Origin: Siphonodentalium dalli
Taxonomy: Eukaryota > Mollusca > Scaphopoda > Gadilida > Siphonodentaliidae
Reading direction: 5' to 3'
DNA: 64,000 nt
Assembly: GCA_032622095.1 (NCBI GenBank)
Contig: CP136069.1
Span: 9,502,036 to 9,566,035 of the forward strand
The position numbers were made by a program, and so were the translations under genes. The notes beneath the pieces are model-generated. The model ran no database searches. It saw only the letters and a list, made by a program, of their open reading frames with translations, and was not told the origin of the DNA. Positions 833 through 64,000 of this stretch are shown here, in pieces (the stretch's first letter is position 1; each line of letters opens with the position of its first letter).

Positions 833-883
833 ACTGTATTACTGTCTCATCATTGGGAGTTATAGGTATAGAGTAGTGTACAC
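833..883 (+). repeat. 51-bp unit variant with GTGTACAC palindrome (1 of 4)
   Basis: Bases 45-50 (normally ATAAAC/T) are replaced by TGTAC, one base shorter, giving GAGTAGTGTACACACTG across the junction. This creates an 8-bp perfect palindrome, GTGTACAC. It is one of only four such units seen in the window, all in the first 3.4 kb, so they probably share one founder. Confidence 0.9.
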
Positions 884-1871
884 ACTGTATTACTGTCTCA
901 TCATTGGGAGTTATAGGTATAGAGTAGATAAATACACTGTATTACTGTCTCATCATTGGGAGTTATAGGTATAGAGTAGATAAATACACTGTATTACTGT
1001 CTCATCATTGGGAGTTATAGGTATAGAGTAGATAAACACACTGTATTACTGTCACATCATTGGGAGTTATAGGTATAGAGTAGATAAATACACTGTATTA
1101 CTGTCTCATCATTGGGAGTTATAGGTATAGAGTAGATAAATACACTGTATTACTGTCACATCATTGGGAGTTATAGGTATAGAGTAGATAAATACACTGT
1201 ATTACTGTCTCATCATTGGGAGTTATAGGTATAGAGTAGATAAATACACTGTATTACTGTCTCATCATTGGGAGTTATAGGTATAGAGTAGATAAACACA
1301 CTGTATTACTGTCTCATCATTGGGAGTTATAGGTATAGAGTAGATAAACACACTGTATTACTGTCTCATCATTGGGAGTTATAGGTATAGAGTAGATAAA
1401 CACACTGTATTACTGTCTCATCATTGGGTGGTATAGGTATAGAGTAGATAAACACACTGTATTACTGTCACATCATTGGGAGGTATAGGTATAGAGTAGA
1501 TAAATACACTGTATTACTGTCTCATCATTGGGAGTTATAGGTATAGAGTAGATAAATACACTGTATTACTGTCACATCATTGGGAGTTATAGGTATAGAG
1601 TAGATAAACACACTGTATTACTGTCACATCATTGGGAGTTATAGGTATAGAGTAGATAAACACACTGTATTACTGTCACATCATTGGGAGGTATAGGTAT
1701 AGAGTAGATAAACACACTGTATTACTGTCTCATCATTGGGAGGTATAGGTATAGAGTAGATAAACACACTGTATTACTGTCTCATCATTGGGAGGTATAG
1801 GTATAGAGTAGATAAACACACTGTATTACTGTCACATCATTGGGAGTTATAGGTATAGAGTAGATAAACAC

Positions 1872-1922
1872 ACTGTATTACTGTCACATCATTGGGAGGT
1901 ATAGGTATAGAGTAGTGTACAC
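1872..1922 (+). repeat. 51-bp unit variant with GTGTACAC palindrome (2 of 4)
   Basis: Same TGTAC replacement at unit 45-50 as the unit at 833, here with A15 and G28. It lies 1039 bp from the first copy, which is 20 units minus the single missing base. Confidence 0.9.
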
Positions 1923-2442
1923 ACTGTATTACTGTCTCATCATTGGGAGTTATAGGTATAGAGTAGATAAATACACTGTATTACTGTCTCATCATTGGGA
2001 GGTATAGGTATAGAGTAGATAAATACACTGTATTACTGTCTCATCATTGGGAGGTATAGGTATAGAGTAGATAAATACACTGTATTACTGTCTCATCATT
2101 GGGAGTTATAGGTATAGAGTAGATACACACACTGTATTACTGTCTCATCATTGGGAGTTATAGGTATAGAGTAGATAAACACACTGTATTACTGTCACAT
2201 CATTGGGAGGTATAGGTATAGAGTAGATAAATACACTGTATTACTGTCTCATCATTGGGAGGTATAGGTATAGAGTAGATAAATACACTGTATTACTGTC
2301 TCATCATTGGGAGTTATAGGTATAGAGTAGATAAACACACTGTATTACTGTCTCATCATTGGCAGTTATAGGTATAGAGTAGATAAACACACTGTATTAC
2401 TGTCACATCATTGGGAGGTATAGGTATAGAGTAGATAAATAC

Positions 2443-2493
2443 ACTGTATTACTGTCACATCATTGGGAGGTATAGGTATAGAGTAGTGTACAC
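2443..2493 (+). repeat. 51-bp unit variant with GTGTACAC palindrome (3 of 4)
   Basis: Same TGTAC replacement, with A15 and G28 as in the copy at 1872. It lies 571 bp further on (11 units minus 1 base). The two A15/G28 copies may be one duplicated haplotype. Confidence 0.9.
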
Positions 2494-3273
2494 ACTGTAT
2501 TACTGTCTCATCATTAGGAGTTATAGGTATAGAGTAGATAAACACACTGTATTACTGTCTCATCATTGGGAGTTATAGGTATAGTGTAGATAAATACACT
2601 GTATTACTGTCTCATCATTGGGAGTTATAGGTATAGAGTAGATAAACACACTGTATTACTGTCACATCATTGGGAGGTATAGGTATAGAGTAGATAAACA
2701 CACTGTATTACTGTCACATCATTGGGAGGTATAGGTATAGAGTAGATAAATACACTGTATTACTGTCTCATCATTGGGAGGTATAGGTATAGAGTAGATA
2801 AATACACTGTATTACTGTCTCATCATTGGGAGGTATAGGTATAGAGTAGATAAATACACTGTATTACTGTCTCATCATTGGGAGTTATAGGTATAGAGTA
2901 GATAAATACACTGTATTACTGTCTCATCATTGGGAGGTATAGGTATAGAGTAGATAAACACACTGTATTACTGTCACATCATTGGGAGGTATAGGTATAG
3001 AGTAGATAAACACACTGTATTACTGTCACATCATTGGGAGGTATAGGTATAGAGTAGATAAATACACTGTATTACTGTCTCATCATTGGGAGTTATAGGT
3101 ATAGAGTAGATAAATACACTGTATTACTGTCACATCATTGGGAGTTATAGGTATAGAGTAGATAAACACACTGTATTACTGTCTCATCATTGGGAGGTAT
3201 AGGTATAGAGTAGATAAACACACTGTATTACTGTCTCATCATTGGGAGTTATAGGTATAGAGTAGATAAATAC

Positions 3274-3324
3274 ACTGTATTACTGTCACATCATTGGGAG
3301 TTATAGGTATAGAGTAGTGTACAC
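3274..3324 (+). repeat. 51-bp unit variant with GTGTACAC palindrome (4 of 4)
   Basis: Last TGTAC-type unit found in the window, with A15 and T28. It is 831 bp after the third (16 units minus 1 base). After this point the variant is absent for 60.7 kb. Confidence 0.9.
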
Positions 3325-19800: not shown

Positions 19801-22574
19801 TATAGAGTAGATAAATACACTGTATTACTGTCACATCATTGGGAGTTATAGGTATAGAGTAGATAAACACACTGTATTACTGTCTCATCATTGGGAGTTA
19901 TAGGTATAGAGTAGATAAACACACTGTATTACTGTCACATCATTGGGAGGTATAGGTATAGAGTAGATAAATACACTGTATTACTGTCACATCATTGGGA
20001 GGTATAGGTATAGAGTAGATAAACACACTGTATTACTGTCTCATCATTGGGAGGTATAGGTATAGAGTAGATAAATACACTGTATTACTGTCACATCATT
20101 GGGAGGTATAGGTATAGAGTAGATAAACACACTGTATTACTGTCTCATCATTGGGAGGTATAGGTATAGAGTAGATAAATACACTGTATTACTGTCACAT
20201 CATTGGGAGTTATAGGTATAGAGTAGATAAACACACTGTATTACTGTCACATCATTGGGAGGTATAGGTATAGAGTAGATAAACACACTGTATTACTGTC
20301 ACATCATTGGGAGTTATAGGTATAGAGTAGATAAACACACTGTATTACTGTCTCATCATTGGGAGGTATAGGTATAGAGTAGATAAATACACTGTATTAC
20401 TGTCTCATCATTGGGAGTTATAGGTATAGAGTAGATAAATACACTGTATTACTGTCTCATCATTGGGAGGTATAGGTATAGAGTAGATAAACACACTGTA
20501 TTACTGTCTCATCATTGGGAGGTATAGGTATAGAGTAGATAAATACACTGTATTACTGTCTCATCATTGGGAGGTATAGGTATAGCGTAGATAAACACAC
20601 TGTATTACTGTCTCATCATTGGGAGGTATAGGTATAGAGTAGATAAACACACTGTATTACTGTCACATCATTAGGAGGTATAGGTATAGAGTAGATAAAC
20701 ACACTGTATTACTGTCACATCATTGGGAGTTATAGGTATAGAGTAGATAAACACACTGTATTACTGTCACATCATTGGGAGTTATAGGTATAGAGTAGAT
20801 AAACACACTGTATTACTGTCTCATCATTGGGAGTTATAGGTATAGAGTAGATAAACACACTGTATTACTGTCTCATCATTGGGAGTTATAGGTATAGAGT
20901 AGATAAACACACTGTATTACTGTCTCATCATTGGGAGGTATAGGTATAGAGTAGATAAATACACTGTATTACTGTCACATCATTGGGAGGTATAGGTATA
21001 GAGTAGATAAACACACTGTATTACTGTCTCATCATTGGGAGGTATAGGTATAGAGTAGATAAATACACTGTATTACTGTCACATCATTGGGAGTTATAGG
21101 TATAGAGTAGATAAATACACTGTATTACTGTCTCATCATTGGGAGGTATAGGTATAGAGTAGATAAATACACTGTATTACTGTCTCATCATTGGGAGGTA
21201 TAGGTATAGAGTAGATAAATACACTGTATTACTGTCACATCATTGGGAGTTATAGGTATAGAGTAGATAAACACACTGTATTACTGTCTCATCATTGGGA
21301 GGTATAGGTATAGAGTAGATAAACACACTGTATTACTGTCTCATCATTGGGAGGTATAGGTATAGAGTAGATAAATACACTGTATTACTGTCTCATCATT
21401 GGGAGTTATAGGTATAGAGTAGATAAACACACTGTATTACTGTCTCATCATTGGGAGTTATAGGTATAGAGTAGATAAATACACTGTATTACTGTCACAT
21501 CATTGGGAGTTATAGGTATAGAGTAGATAAACACACTGTATTACTGTCTCATCATTGGGAGGTATAGGTATAGAGTAGATAAACACACTGTATTACTGTC
21601 TCATCATTGGGAGTTATAGGTATAGAGTAGATAAACACACTGTATTACTGTCACATCATTAGGAGGTATAGGTATAGAGTAGATAAACACACTGTATTAC
21701 TGTCTCATCATTGGGAGGTATAGGTATAGAGTAGATAAACACACTGTATTACTGTCACATCATTAGGAGGTATAGGTATAGCGTAGATAAACACACTGTA
21801 TTACTGTCTCATCATTGGGAGGTATAGGTATAGAGTAGATAAACACACTGTATTACTGTCTCATCATTGGGAGGTATAGGTATAGAGTAGATAAACACAC
21901 TGTATTACTGTCTCATCATTGGGAGTTATAGGTATAGAGTAGATAAATACACTGTATTACTGTCTCATCATTGGGAGTTATAGGTATAGAGTAGATAAAT
22001 ACACTGTATTACTGTCACATCATTGGGAGGTATAGGTATAGAGTAGATAAATACACTGTATTACTGTCACATCATTGGGAGTTATAGGTATAGAGTAGAT
22101 AAACACACTGTATTACTGTCACATCATTGGGAGTTATAGGTATAGAGTAGATAAACACACTGTATTACTGTCACATCATTGGGAGTTATAGGTATAGAGT
22201 AGATAAATACACTGTATTACTGTCTCATCATTGGGAGTTATAGGTATAGAGTAGATAAACACACTGTATTACTGTCTCATCATTGGGAGTTATAGGTATA
22301 GAGTAGATAAACACACTGTATTACTGTCTCATCATTGGGAGTTATAGGTATAGAGTAGATAAACACACTGTATTACTGTCACATCATTGGGAGTTATAGG
22401 TATAGAGTAGATAAATACACTGTATTACTGTCTCATCATTGGGAGTTATAGGTATAGAGTAGATAAACACACTGTATTACTGTCTCATCATTGGGAGGTA
22501 TAGGTATAGAGTAGATAAATACACTGTATTACTGTCTCATCATTGGGAGTTATAGGTATAGAGTAGATAAATAC

Positions 22575-23257
22575 ACTGTATTACTGTCACATCATTGGGA
22601 GTTATAGCGTAGATAAATACACTGTATTACTGTCACATCATTGGGAGGTATAGCGTAGATAAATACACTGTATTACTGTCACATCATTGGGAGTTATAGC
22701 GTAGATAAATACACTGTATTACTGTCTCATCATTGGGAGGTATAGCGTAGATAAATACACTGTATTACTGTCACATCATTGGGAGTTATAGGTATAGCAT
22801 AGATAAACACACTGTATTACTGTCTCATCATTGGGAGTTATAGGTATAGAGTAGATAAACACACTGTATTACTGTCTCATCATTGGGAGTTATAGGTATA
22901 GAGTAGATAAATACACTGTATTACTGTCACATCATTGGGAGTTATAGCGTAGATAAACACACTGTATTACTGTCTCATCATTGGGAGTTATAGGTATAGC
23001 GTAGATAAATACACTGTATTACTGTCACATCATTGGGAGTTATAGCGTAGATAAATACACTGTATTACTGTCTCATCATTGGGAGGTATAGCGTAGATAA
23101 ATACACTGTATTACTGTCACATCATTGGGAGTTATAGGTATAGCATAGATAAACACACTGTATTACTGTCTCATCATTGGGAGTTATAGGTATAGAGTAG
23201 ATAAACACACTGTATTACTGTCTCATCATTGGGAGTTATAGGTATAGAGTAGATAAA
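22575..23257 (+). repeat. 346-bp higher-order duplication rich in short CGTAG units
   Basis: Four consecutive 46-bp CGTAG units (22575, 22621, 22667, 22713) are followed by a full unit with GCATAG. The pattern then recurs with short CGTAG units at 22915, 23013 and 23059 and again a full GCATAG unit at 23105. Bases 22646-22911 match 22992-23257 exactly by eye (266 bp, offset 346, i.e. 7 units with three deletions). In the second copy, the unit at 22961-23012 is a full-length CGTAG unit where the first copy has a short one. This shows that deletion status and the CGTAG substitution can be reassorted. Confidence 0.9.
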
Positions 23258-25140
23258 CACACTGTATTACTGTCACATCATTGGGAGTTATAGGTATAGA
23301 GTAGATAAATACACTGTATTACTGTCTCATCATTGGGAGTTATAGGTATAGAGTAGATAAACACACTGTATTACTGTCTCATCATTGGGAGGTATAGGTA
23401 TAGAGTAGATAAATACACTGTATTACTGTCTCATCATTGGGAGTTATAGGTATAGAGTAGATAAATACACTGTATTACTGTCACATCATTGGGAGTTATA
23501 GGTATAGAGTAGATAAACACACTGTATTACTGTCTCATCATTGGGAGGTATAGGTATAGAGTAGATAAATACACTGTATTACTGTCTCATCATTGGGAGG
23601 TATAGGTATAGAGTAGATAAATACACTGTATTACTGTCACATCATAGGGAGGTATAGGTATAGAGTAGATAAATACACTGTATTACTGTCACATCATTGG
23701 GAGTTATAGGTATAGAGTAGATAAACACACTGTATTACTGTCACATCATTGGTAGTTATAGGTATAGAGTAGATAAATACACTGTATTACTGTCACATCA
23801 TTGGGAGTTATAGGTATAGAGTAGATAAATACACTGTATTACTGTCACATCATTGGGAGTTATAGGTATAGAGTAGATAAACACACTGTATTACTGTCAC
23901 ATCATTGGGAGTTATAGCATAGATAAATACACTGTATTACTGTCTCATCATTGGGAGTTATAGGTATAGAGTAGATAAATACACTGTATTACTGTCTCAT
24001 CATTGGGAGTTATAGGTATAGAGTAGATAAACACACTGTATTACTGTCTCATCATTGGGAGTTATAGGTATAGAGTAGATACACACACTGTATTACTGTC
24101 ACATCATTGGGAGTTATAGGTATAGAGTAGATACACACACTGTATTACTGTCACATCATTGGGAGTTATAGGTATAGAGTAGATAAACACACTGTATTAC
24201 TGTCTCATCATTGGGAGTTATAGGTATAGAGTAGATAAACACACTGTATTACTGTCTCATCATTGGGAGGTATAGGTATAGAGTAGATAAATACACTGTA
24301 TTACTGTCACATCATTGGGAGGTATAGGTATAGAGTAGATAAACACACTGTATTACTGTCACATCATTGGGAGGTATAGGTATAGAGTAGATAAATACAC
24401 TGTATTACTGTCTCATCATTGGGAGTTATAGGTATAGAGTAGATAAATACACTGTATTACTGTCACATCATTGGGAGGTATAGGTATAGAGTAGATAAAC
24501 ACACTGTATTACTGTCTCATCATTGGGAGTTATAGGTATAGAGTAGATAAACACACTGTATTACTGTCACATCATTAGGAGGTATAGGTATAGAGTAGAT
24601 AAACACACTGTATTACTGTCTCATCATTGGGAGTTATAGGTATAGAGTAGATAAACACACTGTATTACTGTCACATCATTGGGAGTTATAGGTATAGAGT
24701 AGATAAACACACTGTATTACTGTCTCATCATTGGGAGTTATAGGTATAGAGTAGATAAATACACTGTATTACTGTCACATCATTGGGAGGTATAGGTATA
24801 GAGTAGATAAACACACTGTATTACTGTCTCATCATTGGGAGTTATAGGTATAGAGTAGATAAACACACTGTATTACTGTCTCATCATTGGGAGTTATAGG
24901 TATAGAGTAGATAAACACACTGTATTACTGTCTCATCATTGGGAGTTATAGGTATAGAGTAGATAAATACACTGTATTACTGTCACATCATTGGGAGGTA
25001 TAGGTATAGAGTAGATAAACACACTGTATTACTGTCTCATCATTGGGAGGTATAGGTATAGAGTAGATAAACACACTGTATTACTGTCACATCATTGGGA
25101 GTTATAGGTATAGAGTAGATAAACACACTGTATTACTGTC

Positions 25141-28200: not shown

Positions 28201-28309
28201 TTACTGTCACATCATTGGGAGTTATAGGTATAGAGTAGATAAACACACTGTATTACTGTCTCATCATTAGGAGTTATAGGTATAGAGTAGATAAACACAC
28301 TGTATTACT

Positions 28310-31932: not shown

Positions 31933-32814
31933 ACTGTATTACTGTCACATCATTGGGAGGTATAGAGTAGATAAATACACTGTATTACTGTCACATCATT
32001 GGGAGGTATAGAGTAGATAAATACACTGTATTACTGTCACATCATTGGGAGGTATAGAGTAGATAAATACACTGTATTACTGTCTCATCATTGGGAGTTA
32101 TAGGTATAGAGTAGATAAATACACTGTATTACTGTCACATCATTGGGAGTTATAGGTATAGAGTAGATAAATACACTGTATTACTGTCACATCATTGGGA
32201 GTTATAGGTATAGAGTAGATAAACACACTGTATTACTGTCACATCATTGGGAGGTATAGGTATAGAGTAGATAAACACACTGTATTACTGTCTCATCATT
32301 GGGAGTTATAGGTATAGAGTAGATAAATACACTGTATTACTGTCTCATCATTGGGAGGTATAGGTATAGAGTATATAAACACACTGTATTACTGTCACAT
32401 CATTGGGAGTTATAGGTATAGAGTAGATAAACACACTGTATTACTGTCTCATCATTGGGAGTTATAGGTATAGAGTAGATAAACACACTGTATTACTGTC
32501 ACATCATTGGGAGGTATAGAGTAGATAAATACACTGTATTACTGTCACATCATTGGGAGGTATAGAGTAGATAAATACACTGTATTACTGTCACATCATT
32601 GGGAGGTATAGAGTAGATAAATACACTGTATTACTGTCTCATCATTGGGAGTTATAGGTATAGAGTAGATAAACACACTGTATTACTGTCACATCATTGG
32701 GAGGTATAGAGTAGATAAACACACTGTATTACTGTCACATCATTGGGAGGTATAGAGTAGATAAATACACTGTATTACTGTCACATCATTGGGAGGTATA
32801 GAGTAGATAAACAC
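31933..32814 (+). repeat. Three trimers of 46-bp short units
   Basis: Three consecutive short units form a 138-bp block at 31933-32070, again at 32487-32624, and again at 32677-32814. A single further copy is at 33023-33068. All ten have the same haplotype: A15, G28, hexamer deleted, AGTAG. They differ only at site 50. The second and third blocks are separated by a single full unit (32625-32676). This is the densest short-unit cluster in the window and looks like repeated copying of one trimer. Confidence 0.92.
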
Positions 32815-33060
32815 ACTGTATTACTGTCTCATCATTGGGAGGTATAGGTATAGAGTAGATAAACACACTGTATTACTGTCTCATCATTGGGAGGTATAGG
32901 TATAGAGTAGATAAACACACTGTATTACTGTCTCATCATTGGGAGGTATAGGTATAGAGTAGATAAACACACTGTATTACTGTCTCATCATTGGGAGGTA
33001 TAGGTATAGAGTAGATAAATACACTGTATTACTGTCACATCATTGGGAGGTATAGAGTAG

Positions 33061-38179: not shown

Positions 38180-38443
38180 TTATAGGTATAGAGTAGATAA
38201 ACACACTGTATTACTGTCTCATCATTGGGAGGTATAGGTATAGAGTAGATAAATACACTGTATTACTGTCACATCATTGGGAGTTATAGGTATAGAGTAG
38301 ATAAACACACTGTATTACTGTCACATCATTGGGAGGTATAGGTATAGAGTAGATAAACACACTGTATTACTGTCACATCATTGGGAGGTATAGGTATAGA
38401 GTAGATATATACACTGTATTACTGTCTCATCATTGGGAGTTAT

Positions 38444-39311
38444 AGGTATAGAGTAGATAAACACACTGTATTACTGTCACATCATTGGGAGTTATAGGTA
38501 TAGAGTAGATAAACACACTGTATTACTGTCACATCATTGGGAGTTATAGGTATAGAGTAGATAAACACACTGTATTACTGTCACATCATTGGGAGGTATA
38601 GGTATAGAGTAGATAAACACACTGTATTACTGTCACATCATTGGGAGGTATAGGTATAGAGTAGATATATACACTGTATTACTGTCTCATCATTGGGAGT
38701 TATAGGTATAGAGTAGATAAACACACTGTATTACTGTCTCATCATTGGGAGTTATAGGTATAGAGTAGATAAACACACTGTATTACTGTCTCATCATTGG
38801 GAGGTATAGAGTAGATAAACACACTGTATTACTGTCACATCATTGGGAGTTATAGGTATAGAGTAGATAAACACACTGTATTACTGTCACATCATTGGGA
38901 GTTATAGGTATAGAGTAGATAAACACACTGTATTACTGTCACATCATTGGGAGGTATAGGTATAGAGTAGATAAACACACTGTATTACTGTCACATCATT
39001 GGGAGGTATAGGTATAGAGTAGATATATACACTGTATTACTGTCTCATCATTGGGAGTTATAGGTATAGAGTAGATAAACACACTGTATTACTGTCTCAT
39101 CATTGGGAGTTATAGGTATAGAGTAGATAAACACACTGTATTACTGTCTCATCATTGGGAGGTATAGAGTAGATAAACACACTGTATTACTGTCACATCA
39201 TTGGGAGTTATAGGTATAGAGTAGATAAACACACTGTATTACTGTCACATCATTGGGAGTTATAGGTATAGAGTAGATAAACACACTGTATTACTGTCAC
39301 ATCATTGGGAG
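38444..39311 (+). repeat. 358-bp higher-order repeat marked by GATATATAC
   Basis: Bases 38444-38953 match 38802-39311 exactly by eye (510 bp at offset 358, i.e. six 52-bp units plus one 46-bp unit). The rare GATATATAC (site 48 T) is at about 38405, 38665 and 39023. The first two are 5 units apart, the last two 7 units apart. Short AGTAG units at 38777 and 39135 are the second shared marker. The third block loses the pattern after five units. Outside this region GATATATAC was seen only near 11419. Confidence 0.92.
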
Positions 39312-48300: not shown

Positions 48301-51300
48301 ATCATTGGGAGTTATAGGTATAGAGTAGATAAATACACTGTATTACTGTCACATCATTGGGAGTTATAGGTATAGAGTAGATAAATACACTGTATTACTG
48401 TCTCATCATTGGGAGGTATAGAGTAGATAAACACACTGTATTACTGTCACATCATTGGGAGTTATAGGTATAGAGTAGATAAATACACTGTATTACTGTC
48501 TCATCATTGGGAGGTATAGGTATAGAGTAGATAAATACACTGTATTACTGTCTCATCATTGGGAGGTATAGGTATAGAGTAGATAAATACACTGTATTAC
48601 TGTCACATCATTGGGAGTTATAGGTATAGAGTAGATAAATACACTGTATTACTGTCTCATCATTGGGAGGTATAGGTATAGAGTAGATAAATACACTGTA
48701 TTACTGTCTCATCATTGGGAGGTATAGGTATAGAGTAGATAAATACACTGTATTACTGTCTCATCATTGGGAGTTATAGGTATAGAGTAGATAAATACAC
48801 TGTATTACTGTCTCATCATTGGGAGGTATAGGTATAGAGTAGATAAATACACTGTATTACTGTCTCATCATTGGGAGTTATAGGTATAGAGTAGATAAAC
48901 ACACTGTATTACTGTCTCATCATTGGGAGTTATAGGTATAGAGTAGATAAATACACTGTATTACTGTCACATCATTAGGAGTTATAGGTATAGAGTAGAT
49001 AAACACACTGTATTACTGTCACATCATTGGGAGTTATAGGTATAGAGTAGATAAATACACTGTATTACTGTCTCATCATTGGGAGTTATAGGTATAGAGT
49101 AGATAAACACACTGTATTACTGTCTCATCATTGGGAGGTATAGGTATAGCGTAGATAAATACACTGTATTACTGTCTCATCATTGGGAGTTATAGGTATA
49201 GAGTAGATAAATACACTGTATTACTGTCACATCATTGGGAGGTATAGGTATAGAGTAGATAAACACACTGTATTACTGTCTCATCATTGGGAGGTATAGG
49301 TATAGAGTAGATAAACACACTGTATTACTGTCACATCATTGGGAGTTATAGGTATAGAGTAGATAAACACACTGTATTACTGTCACATCATTAGGAGTTA
49401 TAGGTATAGAGTAGATAAACACACTGTATTACTGTCTCATCATTGGGAGGTATAGGTATAGAGTAGATAAACACACTGTATTACTGTCACATCATTGGGA
49501 GGTATAGGTATAGAGTAGATAAATACACTGTATTACTGTCACATCATTGGGAGGTATAGGTATAGAGTAGATAAATACACTGTATTACTGTCTCATCATT
49601 GGGAGGTATAGGTATAGAGTAGATAAATACACTGTATTACTGTCACATCATTAGGAGTTATAGGTATAGAGTAGATAAACACACTGTATTACTGTCACAT
49701 CATTGGGAGTTATAGGTATAGAGTAGATAAATACACTGTATTACTGTCTCATCATTGGGAGGTATAGGTATAGAGTAGATAAATACACTGTATTACTGTC
49801 ACATCATTAGGAGTTATAGGTATAGAGTAGATAAACACACTGTATTACTGTCTCATCATTGGGAGGTATAGGTATAGAGTAGATAAACACACTGTATTAC
49901 TGTCACATCATTGGGAGTTATAGGTATAGAGTAGATAAACACACTGTATTACTGTCACATCATTGGGAGTTATAGGTATAGAGTAGATAAACACACTGTA
50001 TTACTGTCTCATCATTGGGAGTTATAGGTATAGCGTAGATAAACACACTGTATTACTGTCTCATCATTGGGAGTTATAGGTATAGAGTAGATAAACACAC
50101 TGTATTACTGTCACATCATTGGGAGTTATAGGTATAGAGTAGATAAACACACTGTATTACTGTCTCATCATTGGGAGTTATAGGTATAGAGTAGATAAAC
50201 ACACTGTATTACTGTCACATCATTGGGAGGTATAGGTATAGAGTAGATAAACACACTGTATTACTGTCTCATCATTGGGAGGTATAGGTATAGAGTAGAT
50301 AAACACACTGTATTACTGTCACATCATTGGGAGTTATAGGTATAGAGTAGATAAATACACTGTATTACTGTCACATCATTGGGAGTTATAGGTATAGAGT
50401 AGATAAACACACTGTATTACTGTCACATCATTGGGAGGTATAGGTATAGAGTAGATAAACACACTGTATTACTGTCTCATCATTGGGAGGTATAGGTATA
50501 GAGTAGATAAACACACTGTATTACTGTCTCATCATTGGGAGTTATAGGTATAGAGTAGATAAACACACTGTATTACTGTCACATCATTGGGAGTTATAGG
50601 TATAGAGTAGATAAATACACTGTATTACTGTCACATCATTGGGAGTTATAGGTATAGAGTAGATAAATACACTGTATTACTGTCTCATCATTGGGAGTTA
50701 TAGGTATAGAGTAGATAAATACACTGTATTACTGTCTCATCATTGGGAGTTATAGGTATAGAGTAGATAAACACACTGTATTACTGTCTCATCATTGGGA
50801 GTTATAGGTATAGAGTAGATAAATACACTGTATTACTGTCACATCATTGGGAGGTATAGGTATAGAGTAGATAAATACACTGTATTACTGTCTCATCATT
50901 GGGAGTTATAGGTATAGAGTAGATAAACACACTGTATTACTGTCTCATCATTGGGAGGTATAGGTATAGAGTAGATAAACACACTGTATTACTGTCTCAT
51001 CATTGGGAGGTATAGGTATAGAGTAGATAAACACACTGTATTACTGTCTCATCATTGGGAGGTATAGGTATAGAGTAGATAAATACACTGTATTACTGTC
51101 TCATCATTGGGAGTTATAGGTATAGAGTAGATAAACACACTGTATTACTGTCTAATCATTAGGAGTTATAGGTATAGAGTAGATAAACACACTGTATTAC
51201 TGTCTCATCATTGGGAGGTATAGGTATAGAGTAGATAAATACACTGTATTACTGTCACATCATTGGGAGTTATAGGTATAGAGTAGATAAACACACTGTA

Positions 51301-51839
51301 TTACTGTCACATCATTGGGAGTTATAGGTATAGAGTAGATAAATACACTGTATTACTGTCACATCATTGGGAGTTATAGGTATAGAGTAGATAAACACAC
51401 TGTATTACTGTCACATCATTGGGAGTTATAGGTATAGAGTAGATAAACACACTGTATTACTGTCACATCATTGGGAGTTATAGGTATAGAGTAGATAAAC
51501 ACACTGTATTACTGTCTCATCATTGGGAGGTATAGGTATAGAGTAGATAAACACACTGTATTACTGTCACATCATTGGGAGGTATAGGTATAGAGTAGAT
51601 AAACACACTGTATTACTGTCTCATCATTGGGAGTTATAGGTATAGAGTAGATAAACACACTGTATTACTGTCTCATCATTGGGAGTTATAGGTATAGAGT
51701 AGATAAACACACTGTATTACTGTCACATCATTGGGAGGTATAGGTATAGAGTAGATAAACACACTGTATTACTGTCACATCATTGGGAGTTATAGGTATA
51801 GAGTAGATAAACACACTGTATTACTGTCTCATCATTGGG

Positions 51840-52600
51840 AGTTATAGGTATAGCGTAGATAAATACACTGTATTACTGTCTCATCATTGGGAGGTATAGG
51901 TATAGAGTAGATAAACACACTGTATTACTGTCACATCATTGGGAGGTATAGGTATAGCATAGATAAATACACTGTATTACTGTCTCATCATTGGGAGTTA
52001 TAGGTATAGAGTAGATAAATACACTGTATTACTGTCACATCATTGGGAGGTATAGAGTAGATAAATACACTGTATTACTGTCTCATCATTGGGAGTTATA
52101 GGTATAGAGTAGATAAACACACTGTATTACTGTCACATCATTGGGAGTTATAGGTATAGAGTAGATAAACACACTGTATTACTGTCTCATCATTGGGAGT
52201 TATAGGTATAGCGTAGATAAATACACTGTATTACTGTCACATCATTGGGAGGTATAGGTATAGAGTAGATAAACACACTGTATTACTGTCTCATCATTGG
52301 GAGTTATAGGTATAGAGTAGATAAATACACTGTATTACTGTCTCATCATTGGGAGTTATAGGTATAGCGTAGATAAATACACTGTATTACTGTCACATCA
52401 TTGGGAGTTATAGGTATAGAGTAGATAAACACACTGTATTACTGTCACATCATTGGGAGTTATAGGTATAGCGTAGATAAATACACTGTATTACTGTCAC
52501 ATCATTGGGAGTTATAGGTATAGAGTAGATAAATACACTGTATTACTGTCTCATCATTGGGAGTTATAGGTATAGCGTAGATAAATACACTGTATTACTG
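51840..52600 (+). repeat. Regularly spaced CGTAG units, second alternating sub-array
   Basis: Full-length units with GCGTAG have their variant base at 51854, 52212, 52368, 52472 and 52576. The last three intervals are 3, 2 and 2 units, so the end of the run alternates a CGTAG unit with an AGTAG unit in a 104-bp dimer. The first interval is 358 bp and contains the short unit at 52023. Confidence 0.75.
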
Positions 52601-53099
52601 TCACATCATTGGGAGTTATAGGTATAGAGTAGATAAATACACTGTATTACTGTCACATCATTGGGAGGTATAGGTATAGAGTAGATAAACACACTGTATT
52701 ACTGTCTCATCATTAGGAGTTATAGGTATAGAGTAGATAAACACACTGTATTACTGTCACATCATTGGGAGGTATAGGTATAGAGTAGATAAACACACTG
52801 TATTACTGTCACATCATTGGGAGTTATAGGTATAGAGTAGATAAACACACTGTATTACTGTCACATCATTGGGAGGTATAGGTATAGAGTAGATAAATAC
52901 ACTGTATTACTGTCTCATCATTGGGAGTTATAGGTATAGAGTAGATAAATACACTGTATTACTGTCTCATCATTGGGAGGTATAGGTATAGAGTAGATAA
53001 ATACACTGTATTACTGTCTCATCATTGGGAGTTATAGGTATAGAGTAGATAAACACACTGTATTACTGTCTCATCATTGGGAGGTATAGGTATAGAGTA

Positions 53100-56000
53100 G
53101 ATAAATACACTGTATTACTGTCACATCATTAGGAGTTATAGGTATAGAGTAGATAAACACACTGTATTACTGTCACATCATTGGGAGTTATAGGTATAGA
53201 GTAGATAAATACACTGTATTACTGTCTCATCATTGGGAGTTATAGGTATAGAGTAGATAAATACACTGTATTACTGTCACATCATTGGGAGTTATAGGTA
53301 TAGAGTAGATAAATACACTGTATTACTGTCACATCATTAGGAGTTATAGGTATAGAGTAGATAAATACACTGTATTACTGTCACATCATTAGGAGTTATA
53401 GGTATAGAGTAGATAAACACACTGTATTACTGTCTCATCATTGGGAGTTATAGGTATAGAGTAGATAAACACACTGTATTACTGTCACATCATTGGGAGT
53501 TATACGTATAGAGTAGATAAATACACTGTATTACTGTCTCATCATTGGGAGGTATAGGTATAGAGTAGATAAATACACTGTATTACTGTCTCATCATTGG
53601 GAGTTATAGGTATAGAGTAGATAAACACACTGTATTACTGTCTCATCATTGGGAGGTATAGGTATAGAGTAGATAAACACACTGTATTACTGTCTCATCA
53701 TTGGGAGTTATAGGTATAGAGTAGATAAATACACTGTATTACTGTCTCATCATTGGGAGTTATAGGTATAGAGTAGATAAATACACTGTATTACTGTCAC
53801 ATCATTGGGAGTTATAGGTATAGAGTAGATAAATACACTGTATTACTGTCTCATCATTGGGAGGTATAGCGTAGATAAACACACTGTATTACTGTCACAT
53901 CATTGGGAGTTATAGGTATAGAGTAGATAAATACACTGTATTACTGTCACATCATTGGGAGTTATAGGTATAGAGTAGATAAACACACTGTATTACTGTC
54001 ACATCATTGGGAGTTATAGGTATAGAGTAGATAAACACACTGTATTACTGTCACATCATTGGGAGTTATACGTATAGAGTAGATAAATACACTGTATTAC
54101 TGTCTCATCATTGGGAGGTATAGGTATAGAGTAGATAAACACACTGTATTACTGTCACATCATTGGGAGTTATAGGTATAGAGTAGATAAATACACTGTA
54201 TTACTGTCTCATCATTGGGAGTTATAGGTATAGAGTAGATAAATACACTGTATTACTGTCACATCATTAGGAGTTATAGGTATAGAGTAGATAAATACAC
54301 TGTATTACTGTCACATCATTAGGAGTTATAGGTATAGAGTAGATAAACACACTGTATTACTGTCTCATCATTGGGAGTTATACGTATAGAGTAGATAAAC
54401 ACACTGTATTACTGTCACATCATTGGGAGGTATAGGTATAGAGTAGATAAACACACTGTATTACTGTCACATCATTGGGAGGTATAGGTATAGAGTAGAT
54501 AAACACACTGTATTACTGTCACATCATTGGGAGGTATAGGTATAGAGTAGATAAATACACTGTATTACTGTCACATCATTGGGAGTTATAGGTATAGAGT
54601 AGATAAATACACTGTATTACTGTCTCATCATTGGGAGTTATAGGTATAGAGTAGATAAACACACTGTATTACTGTCTCATCATTGGGAGGTATAGCATAG
54701 ATAAATACACTGTATTACTGTCTCATCATTGGGAGTTATAGGTATAGAGTAGATAAACACACTGTATTACTGTCATATCATTGGGAGTTATAGGTATAGA
54801 GTAGATAAATACACTGTATTACTGTCTCATCATTGGGAGTTATAGGTATAGAGTAGATAAACACACTGTATTACTGTCACATCATTGGGAGGTATAGGTA
54901 TAGAGTAGATAAACACACTGTATTACTGTCACATCATTGGGAGGTATAGGTATAGCGTAGATAAACACACTATATTACTGTCTCATCATTAGGAGTTATA
55001 GGTATAGAGTAGATAAATACACTGTATTACTGTCACATCATTAGGAGTTATAGGTATAGAGTAGATAAATACACTGTATTACTGTCACATCATTAGGAGT
55101 TATAGGTATAGAGTAGATAAACACACTGTATTACTGTCACATCATTGGGAGTTATAGGTATAGAGTAGATAAATACACTGTATTACTGTCTCATCATTGG
55201 GAGTTATAGGTATAGAGTAGATAAACACACTGTATTACTGTCTCATCATTGGGAGGTATAGCATAGATAAATACACTGTATTACTGTCTCATCATTGGGA
55301 GTTATAGGTATAGAGTAGATAAATACACTGTATTACTGTCACATCATTGGGAGGTATAGGTATAGAGTAGATAAATACACTGTATTACTGTCTCATCATT
55401 GGGAGTTATAGGTATAGAGTAGATAAACACACTGTATTACTGTCACATCATTGGGAGTTATAGGTATAGCATAGATAAATACACTGTATTACTGTCTCAT
55501 CATTGGGAGTTATAGGTATAGAGTAGATAAATACACTGTATTACTGTCACATCATTGGGAGTTATAGGTATAGCATAGATAAATACACTGTATTACTGTC
55601 TCATCATTGGGAGTTATAGGTATAGAGTAGATAAACACACTGTATTACTGTCTCATCATTAGGAGTTATAGGTATAGAGTAGATAAACACACTGTATTAC
55701 TGTCTCATCATTGGGAGTTATACGTATAGAGTAGATAAATACACTGTATTACTGTCTCATCATTGGGAGTTATAGGTATAGAGTAGATAAACACACTGTA
55801 TTACTGTCTCATCATTGGGAGTTATAGGTATAGAGTAGATAAATACACTGTATTACTGTCACATCATTAGGAGTTATAGGTATAGCATAGATAAATACAC
55901 TGTATTACTGTCTCATCATTGGGAGGTATAGCATAGATAAACACACTGTATTACTGTCTCATCATTGGGAGGTATAGGTATAGAGTAGATAAACACACTG

Positions 56001-56500
56001 TATTACTGTCTCATCATTGGGAGTTATAGGTATAGAGTAGATAAATACACTGTATTACTGTCTCATCATTGGGAGTTATAGGTATAGAGTAGATAAACAC
56101 ACTGTATTACTGTCTCATCATTGGGAGTTATACGTATAGAGTAGATAAACACACTGTATTACTGTCACATCATTGGGAGGTATAGGTATAGAGTAGATAA
56201 ATACACTGTATTACTGTCACATCATTGGGAGGTATAGGTATAGAGTAGATAAACACACTGTATTACTGTCACATCATTGGGAGGTATAGGTATAGAGTAG
56301 ATAAATACACTGTATTACTGTCTCATCATTGGGAGGTATAGGTATAGAGTAGATAAATACACTGTATTACTGTCTCATCATTGGGAGTTATAGGTATAGA
56401 GTAGATAAATACACTGTATTACTGTCACATCATTAGGAGTTATAGGTATAGAGTAGATAAACACACTGTATTACTGTCACATCATTGGGAGTTATAGGTA
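53100..56500 (+). repeat. Domain enriched in TTAGG and TACGTA unit variants
   Basis: TTAGGAG (site 23 A) appears about 12 times here, including adjacent pairs at about 53339/53391 and 54269/54321 (930 bp apart: 18 units with one deletion) and a triplet at about 54991, 55041 and 55091. TACGTA (site 33 C) appears near 53505, 54071, 54383, 55723 and 56133. The pairs share the order A15-TTAGG-T50 then A15-TTAGG-C50, so the block was probably copied. Confidence 0.75.
54931..54990 (+). repeat. Distant copy of the CGTAG plus ACTATATT pair
   Basis: Second copy of the rare two-unit haplotype at 25141-25200. The match covers an A15, G28, CGTAG, C50 unit and the start of the next unit through T15; after that the copies differ (TTGGG then G28 at 25.2 kb; TTAGG then T28 here). 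Confidence 0.85.
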
Positions 56501-56596
56501 TAGAGTAGATAAATACACTGTATTACTGTCTCATCATTGGGAGTTATAGGTATAGCGTAGATAAACACACTGTATTACTGTCACATCATTGGGAGT

Positions 56597-58404
56597 TATA
56601 GGTATAGAGTAGATAAACACACTGTATTACTGTCTCATCATTGGGAGGTATAGGTATAGAGTAGATAAATACACTGTATTACTGTCACATCATTGGGAGT
56701 TATAGGTATAGAGTAGATAAACACACTGTATTACTGTCTCATCATTGGGAGGTATAGGTATAGAGTAGATAAATACACTGTATTACTGTCACATCATTGG
56801 GAGTTATAGGTATAGAGTAGATAAACACACTGTATTACTGTCACATCATTGGGAGTTATAGGTATAGAGTAGATAAATACACTGTATTACTGTCTCATCA
56901 TTGGGAGGTATAGCATAGATAAACACACTGTATTACTGTCTCATCATTGGGAGGTATAGGTATAGAGTAGATAAATACACTGTATTACTGTCACATCATT
57001 GGGAGTTATAGGTATAGAGTAGATAAACACACTGTATTACTGTCTCATCATTGGGAGGTATAGGTATAGAGTAGATAAACACACTGTATTACTGTCTCAT
57101 CATTGGGAGTTATAGGTATAGAGTAGATAAACACACTGTATTACTGTCTCATCATTGGGAGGTATAGGTATAGAGTAGATAAACACACTGTATTACTGTC
57201 TCATCATTGGGAGGTATAGGTATAGAGTAGATAAATACACTGTATTACTGTCACATCATTGGGAGTTATAGGTATAGAGTAGATAAACACACTGTATTAC
57301 TGTCACATCATTGGGAGTTATAGGTATAGAGTAGATAAACACACTGTATTACTGTCACATCATTGGGAGTTATAGGTATAGAGTAGATAAACACACTGTA
57401 TTACTGTCTCATCATTGGGAGGTATAGGTATAGAGTAGATAAACACACTGTATTACTGTCTCATCATTGGGAGGTATAGGTATAGAGTAGATAAATACAC
57501 TGTATTACTGTCACATCATTGGGAGGTATAGGTATAGAGTAGATAAACACACTGTATTACTGTCACATCATTGGGAGTTATAGGTATAGAGTAGATAAAT
57601 ACACTGTATTACTGTCACATCATTGGGAGTTATAGGTATAGAGTAGATAAACACACTGTATTACTGTCTCATCATTGGGAGTTATAGGTATAGAGTAGAT
57701 AAATACACTGTATTACTGTCTCATCATTGGGAGGTATAGGTATAGAGTAGATAAACACACTGTATTACTGTCTCATCATTGGGAGTTATAGGTATAGAGT
57801 AGATAAACACACTGTATTACTGTCTCATCATTGGGAGTTATAGGTATAGAGTAGATAAACACACTGTATTACTGTCACATCATTGGGAGGTATAGCATAG
57901 ATAAATACACTGTATTACTGTCTCATCATTGGGAGTTATAGGTATAGAGTAGATAAATACACTGTATTACTGTCTCATCATTGGGAGTTATAGGTATAGA
58001 GTAGATAAATACACTGTATTACTGTCTCATCATTGGGAGGTATAGGTATAGAGTAGATAAACACACTGTATTACTGTCTCATCATTGGGAGTTATAGGTA
58101 TAGAGTAGATAAATACACTGTATTACTGTCACATCATTGGGAGTTATAGGTATAGAGTAGATAAACACACTGTATTACTGTCACATCATTGGGAGGTATA
58201 GGTATAGAGTAGATAAATACACTGTATTACTGTCTCATCATTGGGAGTTATAGGTATAGAGTAGATAAACACACTGTATTACTGTCTCATCATTGGGAGT
58301 TATAGGTATAGAGTAGATAAATACACTGTATTACTGTCTCATCATTGGGAGGTATAGGTATAGAGTAGATAAACACACTGTATTACTGTCACATCATTGG
58401 GAGG
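56597..58404 (+). repeat. 1808-bp higher-order repeat, copy 1 (35 units)
   Basis: First copy of the largest higher-order repeat found. Bases 56597-57356 match 58405-59164 exactly by eye (760 bp, offset 1808). Bases 57601-58461 match 59253-60113 exactly by eye (861 bp, offset 1652). The offset falls by 156 bp (3 units) between 57357 and 57600. The block has short CATAG units at 56881-56926 and 57863-57908, with counterparts at 58689-58734 and 59515-59560. In a 35-unit sample spanning this block I scored T15 in 21, G28 in 16 and C50 in 21. A chance 16-unit match would then have a probability near 1e-14 per pair. Confidence 0.93.
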
Positions 58405-60113
58405 TATAGGTATAGAGTAGATAAACACACTGTATTACTGTCTCATCATTGGGAGGTATAGGTATAGAGTAGATAAATACACTGTATTACTGTCACATCA
58501 TTGGGAGTTATAGGTATAGAGTAGATAAACACACTGTATTACTGTCTCATCATTGGGAGGTATAGGTATAGAGTAGATAAATACACTGTATTACTGTCAC
58601 ATCATTGGGAGTTATAGGTATAGAGTAGATAAACACACTGTATTACTGTCACATCATTGGGAGTTATAGGTATAGAGTAGATAAATACACTGTATTACTG
58701 TCTCATCATTGGGAGGTATAGCATAGATAAACACACTGTATTACTGTCTCATCATTGGGAGGTATAGGTATAGAGTAGATAAATACACTGTATTACTGTC
58801 ACATCATTGGGAGTTATAGGTATAGAGTAGATAAACACACTGTATTACTGTCTCATCATTGGGAGGTATAGGTATAGAGTAGATAAACACACTGTATTAC
58901 TGTCTCATCATTGGGAGTTATAGGTATAGAGTAGATAAACACACTGTATTACTGTCTCATCATTGGGAGGTATAGGTATAGAGTAGATAAACACACTGTA
59001 TTACTGTCTCATCATTGGGAGGTATAGGTATAGAGTAGATAAATACACTGTATTACTGTCACATCATTGGGAGTTATAGGTATAGAGTAGATAAACACAC
59101 TGTATTACTGTCACATCATTGGGAGTTATAGGTATAGAGTAGATAAACACACTGTATTACTGTCTCATCATTGGGAGTTATAGGTATAGAGTAGATAAAT
59201 ACACTGTATTACTGTCTCATCATTGGGAGGTATAGGTATAGAGTAGATAAACACACTGTATTACTGTCACATCATTGGGAGTTATAGGTATAGAGTAGAT
59301 AAACACACTGTATTACTGTCTCATCATTGGGAGTTATAGGTATAGAGTAGATAAATACACTGTATTACTGTCTCATCATTGGGAGGTATAGGTATAGAGT
59401 AGATAAACACACTGTATTACTGTCTCATCATTGGGAGTTATAGGTATAGAGTAGATAAACACACTGTATTACTGTCTCATCATTGGGAGTTATAGGTATA
59501 GAGTAGATAAACACACTGTATTACTGTCACATCATTGGGAGGTATAGCATAGATAAATACACTGTATTACTGTCTCATCATTGGGAGTTATAGGTATAGA
59601 GTAGATAAATACACTGTATTACTGTCTCATCATTGGGAGTTATAGGTATAGAGTAGATAAATACACTGTATTACTGTCTCATCATTGGGAGGTATAGGTA
59701 TAGAGTAGATAAACACACTGTATTACTGTCTCATCATTGGGAGTTATAGGTATAGAGTAGATAAATACACTGTATTACTGTCACATCATTGGGAGTTATA
59801 GGTATAGAGTAGATAAACACACTGTATTACTGTCACATCATTGGGAGGTATAGGTATAGAGTAGATAAATACACTGTATTACTGTCTCATCATTGGGAGT
59901 TATAGGTATAGAGTAGATAAACACACTGTATTACTGTCTCATCATTGGGAGTTATAGGTATAGAGTAGATAAATACACTGTATTACTGTCTCATCATTGG
60001 GAGGTATAGGTATAGAGTAGATAAACACACTGTATTACTGTCACATCATTGGGAGGTATAGGTATAGAGTAGATAAACACACTGTATTACTGTCTCATCA
60101 TTGGGAGGTATAG
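58405..60113 (+). repeat. Higher-order repeat, copy 2 (3 units shorter)
   Basis: Near-perfect second copy of 56597-58461. It differs only in one internal stretch: about five units at 57357-57600 are replaced by about two at 59165-59252. It ends where the next unit becomes a short CGTAG unit (60081-60126) in place of a full unit. I found no third copy: the 19 units before 56881 do not repeat the pattern, although their spacing between short units (982 bp) happens to be the same. Confidence 0.93.
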
Positions 60114-62234
60114 CGTAGATAAACACACTGTATTACTGTCTCATCATTGGGAGTTATAGGTATAGAGTAGATAAATACACTGTATTACTGTCTCATCATT
60201 GGGAGGTATAGGTATAGAGTAGATAAACACACTGTATTACTGTCACATCATTGGGAGGTATAGGTATAGAGTAGATAAACACACTGTATTACTGTCTCAT
60301 CATTGGGAGGTATAGAGTAGATAAATACACTGTATTACTGTCTCATCATTGGGAGTTATAGGTATAGAGTAGATAAACACACTGTATTACTGTCTCATCA
60401 TTGGGAGGTATAGGTATAGAGTAGATAAATACACTGTATTACTGTCACATCATTAGGAGTTATAGGTATAGAGTAGATAAACACACTGTATTACTGTCTC
60501 ATCATTGGGAGGTATAGGTATAGAGTAGATAAACACACTGTATTACTGTCACATCATTAGGAGTTATAGGTATAGAGTAGATAAACACACTGTATTACTG
60601 TCACATCATTGGGAGTTATAGGTATAGAGTAGATAAACACACTGTATTACTGTCTCATCATTGGGAGTTATAGGTATAGAGTAGATAAACACACTGTATT
60701 ACTGTCTCATCATTGGGAGTTATAGGTATAGAGTAGATAAACACACTGTATTACTGTCTCATCATTGGGAGGTATAGGTATAGAGTAGATAAATACACTG
60801 TATTACTGTCTCATCATTGGGAGTTATAGGTATAGAGTAGATAAATACACTGTATTACTGTCTCATCATTGGGAGGTATAGGTATAGAGTAGATAAACAC
60901 ACTGTATTACTGTCTCATCATTGGGAGGTATAGGTATAGAGTAGATAAATACACTGTATTACTGTCTCATCATTGGGAGTTATAGGTATAGAGTAGATAA
61001 ACACACTGTATTACTGTCACATCATTGGGAGTTATAGGTATAGAGTAGATAAACACACTGTATTACTGTCACATCATTGGGAGTTATAGGTATAGAGTAG
61101 ATAAACACACTGTATTACTGTCTCATCATTGGGAGTTATAGGTATAGAGTAGATAAACACACTGTATTACTGTCTCATCATTGGGAGTTATAGGTATAGA
61201 GTAGATAAACACACTGTATTACTGTCTCATCATTGGGAGGTATAGGTATAGAGTAGATAAATACACTGTATTACTGTCTCATCATTGGGAGTTATAGGTA
61301 TAGAGTAGATAAATACACTGTATTACTGTCTCATCATTGGGAGGTATAGGTATAGAGTAGATAAACACACTGTATTACTGTCTCATCATTGGGAGGTATA
61401 GGTATAGAGTAGATAAATACACTGTATTACTGTCTCATCATTGGGAGGTATAGGTATAGAGTAGATAAACACACTGTATTACTGTCTCATCATTGGGAGT
61501 TATAGGTATAGAGTAGATAAATACACTGTATTACTGTCTCATCATTGGGAGGTATAGGTATAGAGTAGATAAATACACTGTATTACTGTCACATCATTGG
61601 GAGGTATAGGTATAGAGTAGATAAATACACTGTATTACTGTCTCATCATTGGGAGGTATAGAGTAGATAAATACACTGTATTACTGTCTCATCATTGGGA
61701 GTTATACGTATAGAGTAGATACACACACTGTATTACTGTCTCATCATTGGGAGTTATAGAGTAGATAAACACACTGTATTACTGTCACATCATTGGGAGT
61801 TATAGGTATAGAGTAGATAAATACACTGTATTACTGTCTCATCATTGGGAGGTATAGAGTAGATAAATACACTGTATTACTGTCACATCATTGGGAGTTA
61901 TAGGTATAGAGTAGATAAATACACTGTATTACTGTCTCATCATTGGGAGTTATAGGTATAGAGTAGATAAACACACTGTATTACTGTCTCATCATTGGGA
62001 GTTATAGGTATAGAGTAGATAAACACACTGTATTACTGTCACATCATTGGGAGGTATAGGTATAGAGTAGATAAACACACTGTATTACTGTCTCATCATT
62101 GGGAGTTATAGGTATAGAGTAGATAAACACACTGTATTACTGTCTCATCATTGGGAGTTATAGGTATAGAGTAGATAAACACACTGTATTACTGTCACAT
62201 CATTAGGAGTTATAGGTATAGAGTAGATAAATAC

Positions 62235-62284
62235 ACTGTATTACTGTCTCATCATTGGGAGTTATAGGTAGAGTAGATAAACAC
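62235..62284 (+). repeat. 50-bp unit with a 2-bp deletion
   Basis: The only unit of this length: GGTAGAGTAG replaces GGTATAGAGTAG, losing TA. It is a private mutation, or a base-calling error, in a TA-rich part of the unit. Confidence 0.88.
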
Positions 62285-64000
62285 ACTGTATTACTGTCAC
62301 ATCATTGGGAGTTATACGTATAGAGTAGATAAACACACTGTATTACTGTCTCATCATTGGGAGTTATAGGTATAGAGTAGATAAATACACTGTATTACTG
62401 TCACATCATTGGGAGGTATAGGTATAGAGTAGATAAACACACTGTATTACTGTCACATCATTGGGAGTTATAGGTATAGAGTAGATAAATACACTGTATT
62501 ACTGTCACATCATTGGGAGTTATAGGTATAGAGTAGATAAACACACTGTATTACTGTCTCATCATTGGGAGGTATAGGTATAGAGTAGATAAATACACTG
62601 TATTACTGTCACATCATTGGGAGGTATAGGTATAGAGTAGATAAATACACTGTATTACTGTCTCATCATTGGGAGTTATAGGTATAGAGTAGATAAATAC
62701 ACTGTATTACTGTCTCATCATTGGGAGGTATAGCATAGATAAACACACTGTATTACTGTCTCATCATTGGGAGGTATAGGTATAGAGTAGATAAACACAC
62801 TGTATTACTGTCTCATCATTGGGAGGTATAGGTATAGAGTAGATACATACACTGTATTACTGTCTCATCATTGGGAGTTATAGGTATAGAGTAGATAAAT
62901 ACACTGTATTACTGTCACATCATTGGGAGGTATAGGTATAGAGTAGATAAACACACTGTATTACTGTCACATCATTGGGAGGTATAGGTATAGAGTAGAT
63001 AAACACACTGTATTACTGTCACATCATTGGGAGTTATAGGTATAGAGTAGATAAATACACTGTATTACTGTCTCATCATTGGGAGGTATAGGTATAGAGT
63101 AGATAAATACACTGTATTACTGTCTCATCATTGGGAGTTATAGGTATAGAGTAGATAAATACACTGTATTACTGTCTCATCATTGGGAGTTATAGGTATA
63201 GAGTAGATAAACACACTGTATTACTGTCACATCATTGGGAGTTATAGGTATAGAGTAGATAAACACACTGTATTACTGTCTCATCATTGGGAGTTATAGG
63301 TATAGAGTAGATAAACACACTGTATTACTGTCTCATCATTGGGAGTTATAGGTATAGAGTAGATAAACACACTGTATTACTGTCTCATCATTGGGAGTTA
63401 TAGGTATAGCATAGATAAACACACTGTATTACTGTCTCATCATTGGGAGGTATAGGTATAGAGTAGATAAACACACTGTATTACTGTCTCATCATTGGGA
63501 GTTATAGGTATAGAGTAGATAAATACACTGTATTACTGTCACATCATTGGGAGTTATACGTATAGAGTAGATAAACACACTGTATTACTGTCTCATCATT
63601 GGGAGTTATAGGTATAGAGTAGATAAATACACTGTATTACTGTCACATCATTGGGAGGTATAGGTATAGAGTAGATAAACACACTGTATTACTGTCACAT
63701 CATTAGGAGTTATAGGTATAGAGTAGATAAATACACTGTATTACTGTCTCATCATTGGGAGGTATAGGTATAGAGTAGATAAATACACTGTATTACTGTC
63801 ACATCATTGGGAGGTATAGGTATAGAGTAGATAAACACACTGTATTACTGTCACATCATTGGGAGTTATAGGTATAGAGTAGATAAACACACTGTATTAC
63901 TGTCTCATCATTGGGAGTTATAGGTATAGAGTAGATAAATACACTGTATTACTGTCTCATCATTGGGAGTTATAGGTATAGAGTAGATAAACACACTGTA

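Follow-up and report, generated by a model that had tools for sequence, protein, structure and literature searches.

A duplicated 1.8-kb block with an internal size change in a 52-bp satellite array of Siphonodentalium dalli

The window, that is the whole stretch of 64,000 nucleotides analysed here, is filled by a single type of tandem repeat:

Positions 1 to 64000, no strand assigned: 52-bp satellite array, units head-to-tail, filling the whole window

TRF run on the window returned a single array at 1-64000 with a period of 52 and 95% matches, and both ends of the array lie outside the window. Most of the 1236 complete units are 52 bp long (1177 units), the others measuring 46 bp (54 units), 51 bp (four units) or 50 bp (one unit), and the A+T content of the array is about 65%. 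Near-identical units following one another head-to-tail over kilobases, without a long coding frame, identify the locus as a satellite or minisatellite tandem array; indeed, no stop-to-stop frame of at least 100 amino acids occurs in the window. Positions 50001-64000, the sole part searched against Rfam, gave no match, and six stretches of the 52-bp unit sought in the text of published papers were not found there. The array had no match among phage and plasmid records, whose descriptions indicate collections without eukaryote nuclear genomes, nor among viral contigs (searched with two exact patterns) or prokaryote genome contigs (one exact pattern). Because these collections apparently hold no eukaryote nuclear genomes, absence from them says little. 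Both the CENP-B box and its looser core gave 0 exact matches on the two strands, so that the array does not qualify as a CENP-B-binding satellite.

The bulk of the variation between units is carried by three two-state positions. In the 1169 units of 52 bp that were counted, position 15 is T in 736 and A in 433, position 28 is T in 756, G in 412 and C in one, and position 50 is C in 678 and T in 491; the next commonest variant, 23A, is found in 49 units. Each unit was given a letter according to its bases at sites 15/28/50, with A for TTC, B for TTT, C for ATC, D for ATT, E for TGC, F for TGT, G for AGC and H for AGT. Since every unit carries these three common two-state sites, the array becomes a readable string, and individual repair events can be traced with a resolution of one unit.

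Outside its duplicated blocks, the array comes close to a random sequence of these letters. Linkage between the three common sites within a unit is nearly nil (r = -0.03, 0.08 and -0.05), and autocorrelation averages 0.038 over lags 1-10. Weak structure exists within units, where sites 28-50 gave p = 0.005 in one test and sites 28-50 and 15-50 gave p of about 0.015 in another, as well as between units, where 4 of 27 tests at lags 1-3 gave p < 0.05, the strongest being site 50 against site 50 at lag 2 (r = 0.10, p = 0.0005). Both speak against perfect mixing.

The window was compared with itself at all offsets, for direct repeats only. This yielded 12 exact repeats of at least 300 bp, the longest two measuring 861 and 760 bp and the following two 510 and 420 bp. 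The longest two delimit a duplicated block with the following features:

Positions 56597 to 58404, forward strand: copy 1 of the duplicated block, 1808 bp, 35 units
Positions 57357 to 57600, forward strand: remainder of copy 1 unmatched in copy 2, 244 bp, units C E F G D
Positions 58405 to 60056, forward strand: copy 2 of the duplicated block, 1652 bp, 32 units
Positions 58405 to 58461, forward strand: junction stretch common to both exact matches, 57 bp, in match coordinates
Positions 59075 to 59424, forward strand: exact local repeat, 3-unit string C B E twice, at an offset of 156
Positions 59165 to 59252, forward strand: remainder of copy 2 unmatched at that place in copy 1, 88 bp, units B E

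The 760-bp match pairs 56597-57356 with 58405-59164 at an offset of 1808, corresponding to 35 units, and the 861-bp match pairs 57601-58461 with 59253-60113 at an offset of 1652, corresponding to 32 units; each offset includes two 46-bp short units. The junction stretch recurs exactly at 56597-56653 (offset 1808) and at 60057-60113 (offset 1652). Within the two matches, every one of the 30 complete pairs of units is identical, in runs of 16 and 14 consecutive units. When the 1236 units were permuted 100 times, the longest identical-unit run was 5, 6, 7 or 8 units in 50, 43, 6 and 1 permutations, respectively. The locus contains two adjacent, in-register and near-identical copies, alike beyond chance, which makes it a tandem block duplication, presumably by out-of-register exchange. 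By definition the 1621 exactly matching bp hold no difference, and the rough 95% upper limit is 0.0018 per site. Since the copies show no differences within the matches, the duplication is recent relative to the array's own variation, a statement from which no date follows. An earlier note on this DNA had described the two matches and had proposed the recent duplication of a 1.8-kb block: the matches prove correct to the base by self-alignment, and the duplication is supported by their length, far beyond the permutation runs, and by the lack of differences within them. A two-copy tandem duplication of a 1.8-kb block is thus present, and is real unless the assembly is wrong.

The block had also been called a higher-order repeat, a name that does not apply in the iterated sense, as it is present only twice, plus the shared junction stretch of 57 bp. 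Over lags 1-399, unit identity exceeds z 3.5 only at lags 2, 6, 78 and 142; lags 32 and 35 do not stand out, and an array-wide period of 32 or 35 units was rejected. With two copies only, the structure is not a higher-order repeat array of the alpha-satellite type, in which a block is iterated many times. Likewise, the size of the block had been taken to indicate crossover or conversion tracts of kilobase length. This inference is not supported, because the 1808-bp offset measures how far the molecules, or the template and the nascent strand, were misaligned, that is the misregister and not the length of a tract. One crossover or template jump at an offset of 1808 bp, in the 52-bp register, is sufficient without any long tract.

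The view that the rearrangement took place at two scales stands, with a block duplication and an internal change. Written in unit letters, the part of copy 1 concerned is ...F C C C E F G D C B E A A..., and the corresponding part of copy 2 is ...F C C B E C B E A A.... The copies have a common prefix of 760 bp and a common suffix of 804 bp, which leave over 244 bp in copy 1 and 88 bp in copy 2; for this reason neither one deletion nor one tandem duplication by itself can link them. The loss or gain of 3 units put forward earlier is right as a net change of 3 units and wrong as a single clean step, as 88 bp replaces 244 bp. Because B E in copy 2 stands opposite C E F G D in copy 1, either two events or one compound repair event is needed.

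The 244 bp particular to copy 1 has no other exact occurrence on the forward strand of the window. The 88 bp of copy 2 is found at 20 other places in the window, and the differing units could thus derive from a distant donor elsewhere in the array; among these other occurrences, the longest flanking agreement is at 40229, with 220 bp in all. The same 88 bp is enclosed in the exact local repeat listed above, in which 59075-59268 is identical to 59231-59424. Across the array, 1.3% of 88-bp windows lie inside an exact local repeat at a lag of 3 units and 6.7% inside one at any lag up to 6, figures that are weak and that were computed after the case was seen.

An exhaustive test was made of one deletion combined with one tandem duplication (duplications from 46 bp), in both directions between the copies. 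From copy 1 to copy 2 there is exactly one solution, a 312-bp deletion (6 units) with a 156-bp duplication (3 units, C B E), and from copy 2 to copy 1 there is none, a polarity that holds only if just local deletion and duplication are allowed. The duplication in this sequence, its exact limits, the rejection of a single clean indel and this unique fit are shown directly. When the copies are aligned base by base, they are separated only by a 156-bp gap and two substitutions, each at a site that commonly varies in the array; a plain 3-unit deletion (F G D) and the separate conversion of a nearby unit from C to B, at two sites 35 bp apart, could also give this result. This path needs no more steps, which counts against the loss of six and gain of three units, and short exchange may be frequent in the array. 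However, it calls for two independent changes at neighbouring places, although the block is otherwise without differences, and leaves the exact 3-unit local repeat of copy 2 to a coincidence seen in few windows of that length. The compound history is modestly favoured, after the fact, over deletion with conversion, which is nearly as good an account of the copies and which we regard as the less probable course of events.

Another alternative is that the difference predates the duplication, two homologues that already differed having exchanged unequally, so that each of the two copies stems from a different allele. This fits all the sequence facts, and unequal homologue exchange would give just such a structure, but a patch event is still required in one of the alleles. 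It is a question of timing, which overlaps with both histories given above, and we hold such an earlier origin of the difference to be rather unlikely.

Our best explanation, to which we assign a probability of about 0.6, is that repair out of register by 35 units duplicated the block and that a compound rearrangement, with six units lost and three gained, took place in copy 2 or in the donor allele. Homologous repair 35 units out of register would have generated the tandem duplication of the 1.8-kb block, by unequal sister or homologue exchange or by break-induced re-replication. A loss of 312 bp (6 units) and a recopying of 156 bp (3 units) would then have affected copy 2, or would have affected the donor allele ahead of the duplication, to give C B E C B E, the string expected when synthesis-dependent repair jumps from the template of one unit to that of an adjacent one. 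The whole-unit offsets, the identity of every complete unit pair and the matches longer than in any permutation support an out-of-register duplication. The unique fit from copy 1 to copy 2, with none in reverse, and the position of the 88 new bases wholly inside the exact 3-unit local repeat support the path with six units lost and three gained. Which repair pathway acted, in what order the events took place and that the assembly is correct are our inferences.

Further support for the out-of-register explanation comes from other blocks at short lags, one of them with 5- and 7-unit versions:

Positions 22252 to 23501, forward strand: probable nested local duplications at 7 and 18 units, from exact matches and permutations
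Positions 38255 to 39311, forward strand: second size-changed block, a 5-unit copy and then two 7-unit copies, from exact matches
Positions 60560 to 61447, forward strand: local duplication of 9 units, 420-bp exact match at an offset of 468

The second size-changed block comprises a 224-bp exact match at an offset of 260 and a 510-bp match at an offset of 358. In the nested case, the 7-unit duplication (266 bp) is just above the best of 12 permutations, and the 18-unit duplication (356 bp) is, on its own, within the permutation range. The highest score in 12 permutations was 20.3. Apart from the runs of the 1.8-kb block itself, five segments exceed this value, one of them with 9 units at lag 7 at 38.4-39.3 kb (32.5) and the other four by a narrow margin: 7 units at lag 9 at 60.6-61.4 kb (20.8), 6 units at lag 78 (20.5), and two strings of 4 units, at lags 11 and 7 (20.4 each). 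Moreover, 26 runs of at least 4 identical units are observed at lags 5-39, the two of the 1.8-kb block included, versus 3.9 in permutations. These blocks, together with the excess of runs, make block duplication at about 0.3-2 kb look like a repeated process in the array, of which the 1.8-kb block is the largest and cleanest case in the window.

These local blocks also bear on the possibility of an assembly artefact, in which two haplotypes of one 1.8-kb block would have been set in tandem. Such an error would yield exact matches with one allelic difference, whereas it would not be expected to place local blocks at other lags across the array. Furthermore, the whole structure extends over only 3.5 kb, and typical long reads exceed this length; we find the artefact improbable. 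Replication slippage, as simple polymerase stutter, is a still more remote source of the block. Exact runs of at least 194 bp are found at every lag of 2-10 units (1-4 each), so that short-range events do occur, but a jump of 1.8 kb is much larger than stutter, and repair-type template switching would fit better. Simple slippage, which the earlier note had set aside in favour of larger exchanges, is unlikely at such a size, although slippage and template switching would look alike in the sequence alone. The likelihoods given to the different alternatives overlap: timing, patch history and assembly are separate questions.

The process is a known one, with unequal exchange or break-induced replication acting on blocks and repair changing single units at minisatellites, and the duplication is an expected event of a long satellite array, in an unusually legible record. 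A review (PMC8997354, citing Smith 1976) describes how out-of-register exchange or re-replication duplicates multi-unit satellite blocks in tandem, and how, in the break-induced replication model, re-initiation ahead of the fork deletes units and re-initiation behind it duplicates them. The present structure is alike in being a tandem multi-unit block, and differs in having two copies instead of an amplified higher-order repeat and in showing no sign of a centromeric role. The human minisatellite MSY1, which can likewise be read as a string of variant units, undergoes gains and losses of 1-3 units as well as unit conversions, attributed there to gene conversion by synthesis-dependent strand annealing (PMC2599865). 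For MSY1, a 77-unit allele was measured in single molecules, whereas here the events are deduced from one sequence of 1236 units. The legible string would allow a test of the shares that block duplication and short-patch exchange take in satellite homogenisation.

Two satellites described in vertebrates have a unit of the same length. In Xenopus tropicalis, a 52-bp minisatellite derived from SINE/tRNA-V tails has expanded in the subtelomeres, which is ascribed to recombination (PMC10794172). Two of the tetramers named for it, TGGG and ACAG (as CTGT on the forward strand), are present in our unit, and the third, AGGG, is nearly absent, with 8 occurrences in 64 kb on either strand. Kinship with the SINE/tRNA-V minisatellite is the best lead, unproved and drawn from unit length and tetramers. 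The other is CharSat01-52 of characiform fish, also with a 52-bp unit, whose A+T content of 59.3-71.5% encompasses that of the present array (PMC8210747). Its within-species divergences are about 15-22% in the rows shown, versus a homogeneous array here; it is a further possible lead, by unit length and composition.

Turnover of the array was simulated with a fixed array size and the three sites only; nothing was fitted, and snapshots of one run are not independent. In the first set, mutations were applied in bursts and the highest mutation settings are invalid; in the second set, 8 of 12 settings yielded no snapshot that could be used, and 3 snapshots each came from three of the remaining four; in the third set, 3 of 16 settings gave none and three gave 2-3. 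For comparison, the array has 4 runs of at least 8 identical units and 2 of at least 12, with a maximum of 16. Block exchange alone gave median values of 225 (third set) and 291 (second set) runs of at least 8 with a mean block of 30 units (3 snapshots each), and 465 with a mean block of 100 units (second set, 198 snapshots). With mean blocks of 3 or 10 and no short exchange (second and third sets), the sites lost variation and no snapshot was usable. Recurrent mutation at theta 3 in the first set gave 6677 runs of at least 8 for a mean block of 2 and 124 for a mean block of 10. Block exchange alone with rare or no mutation thus leaves far too many long runs, and was rejected only for the settings that yielded data. 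In simulation, small-step block exchange with rare mutation is also unlike the near linkage equilibrium of sites 15, 28 and 50 and the near lack of correlation between adjacent units (first set).

In the third set, adding short exchanges of about one unit lowers the number of long runs, to an extent that depends on block size. For a mean block of 10, 30 short exchanges per block event gave medians of 9.5 runs of at least 8, 2 of at least 12 and a maximum of 17.5 (22 snapshots), with a short-lag excess of 2.4 and an autocorrelation of 0.012, below the observed 3.8 and 0.038. For a mean block of 30, 30 short exchanges (28 runs of at least 8, 21 snapshots) or 100 exchanges of 17 bp (26.5 runs, 16 snapshots) are too few, and 300 short exchanges come close (3.5 runs, only 2 snapshots). 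For a mean block of 100, 100 short exchanges are too few (23.5 runs) and 300 give 10 (6 snapshots). No setting matched the short-lag autocorrelation of the array and the remaining statistics at once. Most of these statistics are also bracketed when the three sites mutate recurrently (third set, mean block 30, theta between 10 and 50), a source of mixing that is disfavoured only because each site has just two letters among the 1169 units counted, bar one C at site 28, and because 41A is always accompanied by the adjoining 40C (14 of 14).

The simulations suggest, as a plausible reading and without proving it, that the array undergoes many more short exchanges than block duplications. The near absence of linkage between variant sites separated by a few to 35 bp inside one unit, and of correlation between adjacent units, would point to frequent short-patch exchange. 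A tentative view, possible and below even odds, is that the array is a freely recombining population of units in which short-patch exchanges would be 10-100 times as frequent as block duplications, the 1.8-kb block being a rare fresh event. If true, short-patch exchange would outweigh the block duplications stressed by standard unequal-exchange models.

The rarer variants are scattered over the unit types, 23A and 40C each on 8 of 8 haplotypes, and 40T occurs on one background in 6 of 7 units. Local clustering is seen for 3 of the 16 variants with at least 3 copies, namely 48C, the most frequent 46-bp type and the 51-bp units. All four 51-bp units, with an identical altered end, lie within 2.5 kb of each other (833-3324) on three backgrounds. 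Between 28299 and 28818, the variant 22A is seen at every second unit, at 28299, 28403, 28507 and 28611, and again at 28767; sites 15, 28 and 50 change along this series, the first two units being alike, which suggests local spread followed by very short-range reshuffling. Ten 46-bp units between 31933 and 33068, in three clusters of three (starting at 31933, 32487 and 32677) with one more at 33023, represent the local spread of a 6-bp deletion variant.
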